NCBI GenBank assembly: GCA_014801985.1 | Contig: JAAVDD010000016.1 | Location: 12,202 to 44,464, forward strand | Direction of reading: 5' to 3' | From: Bacteroides sp. | GTDB lineage: Bacteria; Bacteroidota; Bacteroidia; Bacteroidales; Muribaculaceae | DNA length: 32,263 bases | Shown: in pieces, positions 28,361 through 31,370 of the stretch | Layout: every line of letters starts with the position of its first letter | Numbering within the stretch: the first letter of the stretch is position 1 | Notes under the pieces: model-generated | Told to the model about the DNA's origin: nothing | The model's database searches: none | What the model saw: only the letters and a program-made list of their open reading frames with translations | Program-made: the position numbers and the translations under genes

Positions 28361-28391
28361 CAAAGTTAAGAAAAAAAGCAAAACCGTGCAA
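28361..28391 (-). promoter_or_regulatory. Promoter of the AAA_14 gene, -33 box inside palindrome 2
   Basis: On the minus strand TTGC (28391-28388), 19 bases, then TAACTTTG (28368-28361) match the Bacteroidota form. Transcription would begin near 28357, about 17 bases before the ATG. The -33 box is part of the palindrome arm. Confidence 0.7.
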
Positions 28392-28424
28392 ATTAAAAGT
28401 ACAACTTTTAATTTGCACGGTTTT
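28380..28424. repeat. Long perfect palindrome, copy 2, at the 5' side of the AAA_14 gene
   Basis: Two 21-base arms (28380-28400 and 28404-28424) pair perfectly around ACA. The 45 bases are identical to the core of copy 1. The copies bracket the gene at 27174-28340 and lie about 1.25 kb apart. Confidence 0.92.
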
Positions 28425-28510
28425 AAAAGACATTAATAAGAGTCAAAGTAAGATAAATGGAGATTTTAATTAACTTAAAAGAAAAATTATGTTTTTTTGA
28501 AAAAATTTTC

Positions 28511-28518
28511 TAATTTTG
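28511..28518 (+). promoter_or_regulatory. Promoter -7 element of the candidate RNA
   Basis: TAATTTTG matches TAnnTTTG and would start transcription near 28524. No good -33 box is seen at 19-20 bases upstream. The 28425-28510 stretch is AT-rich and holds nothing else I recognise. Confidence 0.5.
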
Positions 28519-28523
28519 TGCTG

Positions 28524-28877
28524 TAGAATTCTTTTGCAGAAGCCTTATAGAAGGCTATGTGGGAGGGTCTGCACAAACCCGCAATTAACAATATAATTGT
28601 GGATAGTGATAATTTTAGATGCGTTTACTCGACGCTCTTTCTTGACGTTCTGAAACTTCGCAACTTTCAAGGTATGGTCAAGAATGCAGCAGGCAGTAGA
28701 TGCCTTGTGGGTATGTTTATTCCACCTATGGCAAGCGCGAGAGCGTTAGCCATTGGTGTAGTTATACATATTCTGCGTGAGGCTTCTGCATGTTTGCTCG
28801 TTCTACCATATCGGGCAATGCGAAGGCCTCAGAACGTGGAACGGGCAACAGTATGGCTCTCGCGCATTTTTATTTTT
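28524..28877 (+). ncRNA. Candidate structured RNA, about 350 nt, unknown class
   Basis: The stretch can fold extensively. TGCAGA (28535-28540) pairs with TCTGCA (28568-28573), enclosing AGCCTT/AAGGCT (28541-28556). GTGGG (28559-28563) can pair with CCCGC (28578-28582) as a pseudoknot. CAATT/AATTG (28582-28599), TTCTTGAC/GTCAAGAA (28639-28646, 28677-28684) and AGGCA/TGCCT (28691-28705) follow. GAGGCTTCTGC (28779-28789) pairs with GCGAAGGCCTC (28820-28830), continued by TTGCTCG/CGGGCAA; the loop GTTCT (28800-28804) can pair with AGAAC (28831-28835). GCGCGAGAGC (28735-28744) closes with GCTCTCGCGC (28856-28865), followed by ATTTTTATTTTT, a terminator. An open frame passes through, but its sequence looks non-protein. 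It does not resemble tmRNA, RNase P RNA, SRP RNA or 6S RNA. Confidence 0.55.
28856..28877 (+). terminator. 3' arm and U tract closing the candidate RNA
   Basis: GCTCTCGCGC pairs with the arm at 28735-28744 and is followed by ATTTTTATTTTT. The long distance between arms suggests a closing stem of a domain that also serves as terminator, 37 bases before the next ATG. Confidence 0.55.
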
Positions 28878-28913
28878 ATGCCGTTAGGAGAGCAACGGCG
28901 TAGTGAAATACTT

Positions 28914-29303
28914 ATGATAGACGAAAAACTTAAATCCCACTTTTTAAGTCTATACTGTATGATTGTAGCCGATGGAGATGTGGCTATTTGCGAATTAGAT
29001 GAAATGTATCGTATTGCTCGAGAATATTATGGGCTTACCCAAGAAGAAATCAATAAGGCTGTTCTATCCGGAGGGTCAGCCTTCTATATTCCTGAAACAG
29101 CTGAGGAAAAAGTTCGTTATTTATATGACTTAGCTCTAATAGCCGTGGCCGATGGTTTGGAGGAAGCAGAGATTGTCTTGTTAAAGAATTATGCAATTAA
29201 ATTTGGTTTTCTTGAAGAAAACATAGATGATCTTGTGGATGTACTACTAGAATATGCTCAGAGAAAAGCTTCCCCGGAAGAAGTTTTGGCTTTATCAGAA
29301 TAA
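28914..29303 (+). CDS. TerB-like protein
   Basis: This 129-residue cytoplasmic protein resembles the TerB/TerB-N group, all-helical proteins first linked to tellurite resistance and membrane-associated stress responses. It shows an internal repeat: LYCMIVADGDVAICELDEMYRIAREYYGL (13-41) and LALIAVADGLEEAEIVLLKNYAIKFGF (73-99), each with the VADG motif and acid residues (Asp20, Asp80) thought to bind metal in TerB. The frame is open upstream to 28557, but that part lies in the candidate RNA and its terminator, so I start at 28914. A membrane protein gene follows after 27 bp and a vWA-like gene after that; the three form an apparent operon. Confidence 0.72.
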   Translation: MIDEKLKSHFLSLYCMIVADGDVAICELDEMYRIAREYYGLTQEEINKAVLSGGSAFYIPETAEEKVRYLYDLALIAVADGLEEAEIVLLKNYAIKFGFLEENIDDLVDVLLEYAQRKASPEEVLALSE

Positions 29304-29330: not shown

Positions 29331-30527
29331 ATGGATAAAATAAAGAATCTTTTTAAGACCAAGGATGCCCTTAACCCTGCGGATGCTCAAATTGTGGCAC
29401 GCGGATCAAATGTAAAGGAGGTAGAAGAAACATATCGTGCCTGGGGTGTCCGTTGGAGTGGGAATGCCGGAGGTAATATCAATGCGTTAAATCCAGCACT
29501 CCAGTCGTGCTATACGCAGAATGTGAATGAACAGAATCAGAATCAAGAACTTCAAGAAAAGAATCAAAGTAACATTCAAAAGCAAATAGCCACAAAGCAG
29601 AGCCAACGAGATGGCTTGCAAGTTCAGATTGATTCAAAAATAAGACATAAGGAAAGATTAGAAGAAGAGATTCAATCATATAGAGATAAAATAGATGAGA
29701 TTAATAGCAATGATAAGGTAAATATCATGGCAAAAGTTAATTTCTCTATTGGGTTGATAATAACAGCTCTTTTAGCAATATATTTGTTTGTATTCTATAG
29801 TTCTGCTTCTTTCTCTGCATTCTTCGGTAATAATGATATATCCGGAGCTGGAGAGGCTATATTTGATGCTCATTGTTATTCAGAGGCTGTAGCAAATGGG
29901 TTAGGCCAATTGCTATTCATCCTTCTAATGCCTGTAATATTTTTAGGGTTAGGTTTCCTGATTCATCAATTTGGCGATGTTGAAAAAGGTTGGAGTAAAT
30001 TCATCAAGATTGGAGCCTTGTATGTGGTAACTTTTATTTTTGATGCATTACTTGCCTTTGAGATTTCTCAAAAAGTGTATAATTATACAGTTTTATCGGA
30101 GGAACCTTATACAGTTTCAATGGCTTTTAATTCTCCTAACTTTTGGATTGTAATTTTTTCCGGTTTTGTTGCGTATGTGATATGGGGTCTGGTCTTTGAT
30201 TTTACATTACAGCATTTTGATAATATGAATTCCCATACTAAAGAGATCAAAGTATTGGAGGATAAGATTTCTAATTCAAAACAGCAAGTGGATGTAATAA
30301 AAAAACAAATTGATCAGATCCAGATTCAAATTAACAATTTGGAAACAGATATAGCAGCTTTAAATACTCAACTTCAAAACAAATCACTTATAGATAAAAA
30401 TATTCTTAAACAAGCATTGAGCGAGTTCTTCACGGGTTGGCTCTCTTATATGCATTTAGCCGCTAAATCTGAGGGAGATCAGAATATTGCCACTGATACA
30501 TACAATACATTCATAACACAGTTATAA
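29331..30527 (+). CDS. Four-helix membrane protein with two coiled coils, unknown function
   Basis: I do not recognise this 398-residue protein. The N-terminal 60 residues are polar. A Gln/Asn/Lys-rich coiled coil runs from about 65 to 128. Four membrane helices are predicted near 137-157, 189-211, 225-245 and 270-290. A second coiled coil spans about 300-352, and a short amphipathic tail ends the protein. Both coils should lie on the same side of the membrane, since the helix number is even, most likely in the cytoplasm, where they could meet the TerB-like protein. Base composition is notably AT-rich. The next gene starts 3 bp after the stop. Confidence 0.75.
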   Translation: MDKIKNLFKTKDALNPADAQIVARGSNVKEVEETYRAWGVRWSGNAGGNINALNPALQSCYTQNVNEQNQNQELQEKNQSNIQKQIATKQSQRDGLQVQIDSKIRHKERLEEEIQSYRDKIDEINSNDKVNIMAKVNFSIGLIITALLAIYLFVFYSSASFSAFFGNNDISGAGEAIFDAHCYSEAVANGLGQLLFILLMPVIFLGLGFLIHQFGDVEKGWSKFIKIGALYVVTFIFDALLAFEISQKVYNYTVLSEEPYTVSMAFNSPNFWIVIFSGFVAYVIWGLVFDFTLQHFDNMNSHTKEIKVLEDKISNSKQQVDVIKKQIDQIQIQINNLETDIAALNTQLQNKSLIDKNILKQALSEFFTGWLSYMHLAAKSEGDQNIATDTYNTFITQL

Positions 30528-30530
30528 AAT

Positions 30531-31370
30531 ATGAAAAAATTTCTTTTAGTATTAGGACTCATTGTTGTTATTGTCACTATAGTATGGGTGGGTTGTCGCT
30601 CATCAAATACAAAGTCAAAGGCAGAGACAGAGAAAATAATGGCAGAGCAAAAGGTGCCTATAAATATTACTGTCTTTTTAGATCTATCTGATCGTATAGA
30701 GAAAAAAAAGGACAATATTATTCAATTTGAGAAGGATACCGCCATTCTCAATGGTCTTATAGATTTGTTCATTAAAAAACAGGATAAGGAAGGATTTCAA
30801 AAAAGCAGAGATAATTTTCAAGTTGTTTTTTATCCTGCTCCTTCTGGTGCTAATGAAATAGCAAAAAGTTTATCTCTGGATTTAGCTAAGATTGAGGGAC
30901 CCAAGAAAAAAGCTCTCCTTAATTTTAAGAAATATCATAGGGATAATATAAAGTCATTGTACGATAATGCTTTACAGGCTAAAGACTATTTCGGTTCTGA
31001 CATTTGGGGGTACTTTGAGAAAGATAAAGTTGCGGATGTAATAAAGAAAGGGTATCGTAATATATTCATCATATTCACTGATGGATATATTTATGATGAA
31101 AATAACGTCAGAGAGGAGAACGGCTACTACAGCTATATTCTCCCCAAAGTTATTCAATCACAAAAGGGATTGATTCCATGTAAACTCTCTAATGCAGATT
31201 TCGAATTATACTTGGTTGAGTGTAATCCTTATAAAAGTGATGATTCAAAAAGAATGAGGGAATTACTTAATTCTTGGTTTTCTGAAATGGGTATAAAATC
31301 AATAGACATTCAAGAAACTGATTTACCAAACACAACGCTTAATCATCTGAAAAGTAAAATTTATGATTAA
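30531..31370 (+). CDS. Membrane-anchored vWA-like protein
   Basis: This 279-residue protein starts with a hydrophobic segment (3-20) and Cys22 in WVGCRSS, which could be a lipidation site although Trp at -3 is not standard. The outer part has a vWA-like arrangement: beta strand INITVFLDLSDR (45-55), with Asp51 and Ser53 as a DxSxR variant of the DxSxS MIDAS motif, and FIIFTDGYIY (179-188) with the Thr183-Asp184 pair. Such domains often bind divalent metal and other proteins. The third gene of the apparent operon, it could be the periplasmic partner of the membrane protein. The function is unknown. A hairpin follows. Confidence 0.72.
   Translation: MKKFLLVLGLIVVIVTIVWVGCRSSNTKSKAETEKIMAEQKVPINITVFLDLSDRIEKKKDNIIQFEKDTAILNGLIDLFIKKQDKEGFQKSRDNFQVVFYPAPSGANEIAKSLSLDLAKIEGPKKKALLNFKKYHRDNIKSLYDNALQAKDYFGSDIWGYFEKDKVADVIKKGYRNIFIIFTDGYIYDENNVREENGYYSYILPKVIQSQKGLIPCKLSNADFELYLVECNPYKSDDSKRMRELLNSWFSEMGIKSIDIQETDLPNTTLNHLKSKIYD

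Follow-up and report, generated by a model that had tools for sequence, protein, structure and literature searches.

A large structured RNA, probably a gene leader, dispersed among the Muribaculaceae and other Bacteroidales

Upstream of a gene for a TerB-like protein, the stretch of Bacteroides sp. DNA analysed here (the window, 32,263 nucleotides of a Muribaculaceae genome) holds a region, positions 28511–28877, that can be read in two ways: as part of an over-long protein, encoded by a frame open from 28557 to 29303, or as a structured RNA. The earlier note on this DNA had favoured a hidden RNA of about 350 nt, and had pointed to covariation among homologues and to conservation of the frame as the places to look for an answer. 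That the region forms a conserved, folded RNA of roughly this length now appears virtually certain from comparison with its relatives. The minimum free energy of the 365-nt RNA (28521–28885) is −146.3 kcal/mol, whereas shuffles average −103.1 (z = −7.7; 0 of 100 shuffles equal it), and this, with strong covariation among homologues (by pair counts, not R-scape), bears the proposal out. The crossing frame is present in the window and is not conserved among copies: all three forward frames are stopped in 136 of 155 copies, leaving no codon frame kept in most of them, and a frame is continuous into the downstream gene in 4 of the 155, window included. At least one forward frame is open through the core in 19 of the 155 copies, where mononucleotide shuffles predict 2.7. 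Despite this excess of open frames over shuffles, the reading of the region as protein-coding, or of its structure as chance, is refuted by the covariation and by the stops in most copies, and we dismissed it. The first gene likely starts at 28914 rather than 28557 and encodes a protein of 129 amino acids (28914–29303) with a weak match to Pfam TerB (E 0.0011; 19.7 bits, below the curated cut-off of 24.4).

The fold was delineated on an alignment (A4) of 40 of the 89 copies then collected, picked by similarity and an intact loop A, a choice that favours structure. Nine helices comprising 68 pairs were named on it, and 95.7% of the cells in these pairs are standard-paired, compared to 83.4% in shuffles. 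Two-sided changes number 359 cells versus 107 in shuffles, and the covariation score is 0.410 versus 0.178 in shuffles and at most 0.091 in slid versions, over which the structure has an advantage in being derived from the same copies. In the window copy (all features on the plus strand) the RNA opens with a 5′ domain hairpin at 28522–28573 (outer arms ~28522–28527 and 28568–28573), drawn from the fold and the alignment of relatives rather than from pair counts. It is followed by a small hairpin, GCGU-UUACUCG-ACGC, at 28621–28635 (helix 1, 98.1% of cells paired, zero two-sided changes), and by hairpin H1 at 28639–28684, whose arms, 28639–28644 and 28679–28684 (helix 2, 96.3% paired, one pair changed on both sides), enclose loop A. 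Stem P4 at 28709–28773 (28709–28716 with 28766–28773) surrounds a variable hairpin, capped by GAGA in the window; helices 6 and 7 here are 95.6% and 81.9% paired. Helix 7, the variable arm inside P4, shows two-sided changes in all nine of its nine pairs and, in 28 of 40 rows, is closed by a GNRA loop, a cap that suggests a further contact. Hairpin H2 occupies 28794–28848, its arms 28794–28803 and 28839–28848 (helix 9, 98.5% paired) enclosing loop B (28804–28838). The terminator-like stem T joins GCGTGAG (28775–28781) to CTCGCGC (28859–28865), with 98.2% of cells paired and two-sided changes in three of seven pairs (helix 8), and a U-rich tract follows directly (28866–28879), with T in 82%–95% of copies at its first four positions and in about half by the tenth.

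Much of what had been noticed in the letters survives in this model. The stems proposed earlier are present in the sequence, as is the U tract right after stem T; the estimate of about 350 nt is roughly right, the conserved unit being somewhat wider and taking in a further hairpin at 28880–28899. A suspected GTTCT/AGAAC pseudoknot proves real as a piece of block 1 of a far larger loop-loop interaction. In its companion, GTGGG/CCCGC, the CCCGC (28578–28582) lies in a stretch (~28573–28612) that is gapped in most of 35 aligned rows. The 10-bp GC-rich long-range stem, ~28734–28743 with 28856–28865, is there in the window and is peculiar to that copy, the only row of 40 to reach nine pairs; with 39 of 40 rows below nine, it is ruled out as a conserved feature.

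The two hairpin loops pair with each other. H1 and H2 bear loops A and B, of about 30 nt each, which are joined by helices of 9, 7 and 8 bp (24 bp). Block 1 of loop A, ACGTTCTGA (28645–28653), pairs with 28829–28837 (helix 3, 98.9% paired, two-sided changes in seven of nine pairs); block 2, CTTCGCA (28656–28662), with 28819–28825 (helix 4, 99.3% paired, five of seven, no G-U); and block 3, GGTATGGT (28671–28678), with 28805–28812 (helix 5, 96.9% paired, seven of eight). The helices vary as whole blocks, block 2 and its partner reading CTTCGCA/TGCGAAG, CCTGGAA/TTCCAGG or TCTGGTA/TACCAGA in different copies. In the A4 pair table, G-U pairs fill 12 of 931 cells of the loop-loop helices, 41 of 400 in H2 and 24 of 240 in H1. 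A comparison independent of the alignment agrees: across 89 copies, loop A with its own loop B averages −34.1 kcal/mol against −23.9 with foreign partners, and the own partner ranks first of 89 in 43 copies and among the top three in 75, the others falling as low as 77th. A compact A:B duplex is found in 148 of 155 copies and is absent in seven. The family offers a natural data set for the evolution of a large kissing-loop contact nearly without G-U pairs.

To join two closed loops of one molecule by 24 bp, the helices would have to bend at the internal loops; otherwise the contact would form between molecules, and the covariation would fit pairing in cis or in trans alike. Block 1 and block 3 each come in about 100 kinds among 152 copies, and full codes differ in 210 of 215 within-genome pairs, so that each RNA would mostly recognise only itself. 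We give little credence to the far-reaching idea that the loops act between molecules as a locus-specific 24-bp "barcode", in which loop A pairs with the loop B of a second molecule to give homotypic dimers or rings; were it true, the leader would count its own transcripts and switch its gene through RNA self-assembly. Avoidance of code sharing within genomes is without support: in the window's genus the sharing of a full code is if anything higher within genomes (5 of 134 pairs) than between them (28 of 2947).

A second long-range pseudoknot, PK5, is proposed between GCAGAAGCC near the 5′ end (28536–28544) and GGCTTCTGC (28781–28789), the 5′ strand being complementary to GGCUUCUGC, which adjoins stem T. 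By energy, the own partner beats 2000 of 2000 permutations (n = 146); by a cruder count of paired bases, own and permuted partners do not separate (126/145 versus a permuted mean of 129). Because this count fails to tell them apart, PK5 would seem a supported but weaker and less certain 5′–3′ contact than that between the loops. The same count, which had missed PK5 itself, lent no support to a longer PK5 reaching into stem T as an antiterminator (own 110/145, permuted mean 119).

The RNA does not fall into a family that Rfam describes. At the gathering score, Rfam 15 gave no match anywhere in the window, and a scan of 28380–28960 relaxed to E values up to 10 left the element without a family; this accords with the earlier impression of a molecule unlike the known large housekeeping RNAs. 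Applied to 40 related loci, the same library gave three hits, to a tRNA, an L13 leader and abiF, none overlapping the element. A tRNA or tmRNA identity is excluded, ARAGORN giving no match. The whole Rfam library was scanned, which presumably contains the OLE, ROOL and GOLLD models, and neither the window nor the 40 loci matched any of them. Large riboswitches and leader attenuators such as the T-box and cobalamin RNAs share with this RNA the 5′ leader position, a pseudoknotted domain, a stem followed by a U tract and an alternative pairing of the last strand. Unlike them, it is without an Rfam match, it precedes genes of many families, and its two big loops pair over 24 bp in a sequence that varies by copy. 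OLE, ROOL and GOLLD are ornate large RNAs with conserved kissing loops (PMC12286853), and resemble it in their several hundred nucleotides, kissing loops and multi-pseudoknot fold. They differ in that the present RNA is coupled to the sequence before a gene, has a 3′ domain found up to 16 times per genome and, in the copies scanned, matches no Rfam model. Bacteroidales-1 RNA (RF01693), marked as an RNA in PMC2864571, belongs to the same order and has no match in the window or the 40 loci. The candidate RNAs from human microbiomes in PMC8040213 include, in its accessible part, short Bacteroidetes ones, some upstream of genes; unlike the leader RNA, those examples with stated lengths span 38–132 bp, and an unnamed fragment of it may be among the entries of the tables. 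PMC11109978 and PMC8632094 make no mention of Bacteroid-, Prevotella, Muribacul- or Porphyromonas, and a search of titles and abstract openings, with subscription papers and supplements outside its scope, returned no account of the leader RNA. By sequence comparison it appears to be a new class within a known kind, the large structured leader RNAs.

Its distribution was followed with DNA searches and with a covariance model (R1) of the 3′ domain, 106 positions built from 33 copies (alignment A1). In the window's own draft genome R1 finds ten distinct places (12 rows, two being opposite-strand echoes). Filters were stricter wherever a search covered more than 40 genomes, so that the following genome counts are lower bounds: similar DNA occurs in 55 of 101 genomes, that is, 53 of 61 of the same genus (its own included) and two others of the order, while R1 matches 90 of 99 genomes of the Muribaculaceae (72 of the 77 good-quality ones; a single genome has as many as 16 matches), 55 of 393 genomes and 31 of 207 genera of the order, and 2 of 395 genomes in a sample of the phylum, both from the window's order. 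A large and elaborate RNA class has thus remained without an Rfam family despite a 3′ domain in 72 of 77 good-quality genomes of one bacterial family. A pattern scan of named genomes, whose loci do not enter the copy counts, found at least 116 stretches. Among the 80 listed, nearly all bear Bacteroidales-type names (Segatella copri, Paraprevotella xylaniphila, Bacteroides caecigallinarum, Prevotella, Duncaniella, Paludibacteraceae, Salinivirgaceae and others), and three Firmicutes-type names and one plain "bacterium" are probably binning errors. Six named genomes, four strains and two MAGs, have 6, 9, 4, 4, 6 and 5 R1 matches, and the 3′ domain is carried by cultured Segatella copri, Paraprevotella, Prevotella and Bacteroides strains. 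Excluded from the locus sets were 12 + 9 opposite-strand echoes, repeats of the same place, one identical element, and six loci of named genomes (L219, L224, L230, L237, L241 and L245; four already listed for G078).

A wide spread through phages or plasmids was considered and set aside, as there was a single partial phage record and no plasmid match, and one strict pattern found three viral contigs. On one viral contig (L215) the leader, at 532–634, is followed after 13 nt by a large ORF in which a translation-factor-like GTPase motif, GHVGHGKTTLTAAITT, was recognised by eye; on two viral contigs (L216, L217) it precedes closely related proteins of 835 and at least 524 amino acids that begin MYKISWDYETGG. 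In L037, an unverified phage record, a frame that looks partly similar by eye follows the copy at about 390 nt.

What does this RNA do? Its relation to the flanking DNA is informative. The element TAnnTTTG, which we take to be the Bacteroidetes promoter element, had been noticed earlier and is present in the window as TAATTTTG (28511–28518). Of 142 copies, 128 have it 60–220 nt upstream of loop A, compared to 11.5 expected from mononucleotide shuffles, and 88 of those 128 also have TTG 15–25 nt further upstream; in the window no TTG is seen at that distance. We infer from this enrichment that the RNA would start at the box, and on the estimated +1 its full length to the end of stem T is about 280–370 nt (median 308). 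Behind the leader, 143 of 149 copies have a same-strand ORF of at least 60 amino acids, at a median of 57 nt; six do not, and at one of these loci (L014) the next long frame runs in the opposite direction. Such ORFs also follow 88 of 111 random plus-strand flank positions and 40 of 72 on the upstream minus strand, and because they are common in the flanks it is the narrow distance, not mere ORF presence, that is telling: a start falls 38–70 nt behind the leader in 81 of 149 copies, compared to 16 of 111 and 4 of 72 in the two controls.

The RNA is further tied to the gene by a downstream pseudoknot. The stem T strand GGCUCUC pairs copy-specifically with the pre-start sequence GAGAGUC and its variants, none of 2000 permutations being as good (n = 152). 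The own partner is the single best in 7 of 152 copies and among the best five in 23, ranks that are low because many copies share the same sequence. In the window the 5′ strand is GCTCTC (28856–28861), which shares 3 nt with stem T, and its complement is GAGAGC (28888–28893) in the loop of the pre-start hairpin GCCGTT-AGGAGAGC-AACGGC (28880–28899), 20 nt upstream of the ATG at 28914. The narrow start distance and the copy-specific pre-start pairing, together with the promoter box and the U tract, weigh strongly for a cis-acting leader over a free RNA, and we consider it likely that the RNA is such a leader, which would probably control the gene behind it. A regulatory role, one of the two kinds of large RNA that its pairing had brought to mind, is supported in this way, whereas a catalytic one has no support.

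The genes so placed are diverse. The position upstream of the TerB-like operon had been correctly seen, but the RNA is a dispersed family before many genes and is not tied to that operon. In a Pfam search of 78 of the 83 first downstream proteins (five doubtful or near-duplicate ones left out), 13 of the 78 matched BspA-type leucine-rich repeats (LRR_5); 49 families were matched in all, and among the 25 listed, those other than leucine-rich repeats have one to three members each. As the downstream proteins belong to many families, they suggest no ligand. A crude home-made test finds a signal-peptide-like start in 80 of 143 first proteins, compared to 23 of 110 other long ORFs at the same loci. 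The leader family would point to a shared layer of regulation that acts on accessory proteins of gut bacteria, many of them secreted. Behind the TerB-like gene in the window, 29331–31370 encodes two proteins that lack a Pfam match above the curated cut-off: judged by eye, one of 398 aa is a coiled coil and one of 279 aa starts like a lipoprotein. Upstream of the leader promoter, between it and the AAA ATPase gene, a long near-perfect inverted repeat (AAAACCGTGCAAATTAAAAGT and its complement, 28384–28432) is probably a terminator separating that gene from the leader-borne one.

We favour, with a probability of about 0.55, a leader that acts chiefly as a fold-dependent terminator in cis. When the RNA folds fully, the loop-loop contact would unite the arms of stem T, 77 nt apart; once stem T had formed, transcription would halt at the U tract. 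If folding were disturbed, whether by a ligand, a protein, an RNA or a physical condition, polymerase would read through, and the last strand of stem T could then be captured in part by the pre-start hairpin, a capture that may also tune translation. The U-rich tract directly behind a GC-rich stem of about 7 bp in most copies speaks for termination. The downstream pseudoknot, with its 3-nt overlap with stem T and a pairing supported by permutation, is the candidate antiterminator; as its partner lies past the U tract, it forms only there and is not an antiterminator in the simple sense. Weighing against the terminator reading are also the low rank of own partners in this pseudoknot, the negative result for an extended PK5 and the base count on PK5 itself, the six copies that lack an ORF behind them, the excess of open frames over shuffles, and the genes' want of a common pathway.

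The same gene-proximal features could be read as control of translation, with the U tract a mere linker and ribosome access set by the pre-start hairpin and the stem T pseudoknot. We hold this to be rather unlikely: it would account for the copy-specific pairing before the start codon, the most gene-proximal feature of all, and for the tendency of the start codon to a narrow distance, but it leaves aside the retention in most copies of a U-rich tract after a GC-rich stem, as in intrinsic terminators, and Bacteroidales depend little on Shine-Dalgarno pairing. The size, the pseudoknots, the RNA's own promoter box and the terminator-like end would all suit a free-standing RNA in the manner of OLE, ROOL and GOLLD, ending at the U tract with the gene a read-through passenger; the following ORF is missing in 6 of 149 copies, and the ornate RNAs of PMC12286853 likewise use conserved kissing loops. 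The preferred start-codon distance, the copy-specific pairing between RNA and pre-gene sequence, and the many copies per genome with different genes behind them make this an improbable reading.

The variety of genes behind similar leaders could also reflect a mobile or cassette-like element that jumps or serves as a recombination site for gene exchange. Among 22 pairs of copies with cores at least 88% identical over at least 220 nt, the downstream genes have no mutual BLAST match in 12, are related in eight and are undecidable in two; one genome (G030) has three copies, 95%–98% identical, before unrelated genes. For L286 and L287, which lie in one genome, identity extends from just before the promoter to near the start codon, and L289 shares the upstream gene of L290 and L291 but has a different one downstream. 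In L015/L261 and L017/L252 the shared stretch extends further upstream. By eye, the ORF lists of a few contigs showed no recombinase or transposase, no constant target or terminal repeats are evident in five aligned pairs, and homologous recombination or gene conversion between copies gives the same pattern. Mobility thus seems to us very improbable, and recombination between copies would be the simplest explanation of similar leaders before unrelated genes; for the leader itself we return to the fold-dependent terminator.

Two further observations concern the arrangement of copies on contigs. Two leaders on L288 (7084–7919 and 10581–11183) lie 3.3 kb apart with about 200 nt or more of shared upstream DNA, each preceding its own gene or genes in what resembles an array of leader-gene units. 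Contigs 37 and 38 of one genome (G045; L010 and L272) start inside the element, which makes it probable that assemblies of these bacteria break at the repeated leader.
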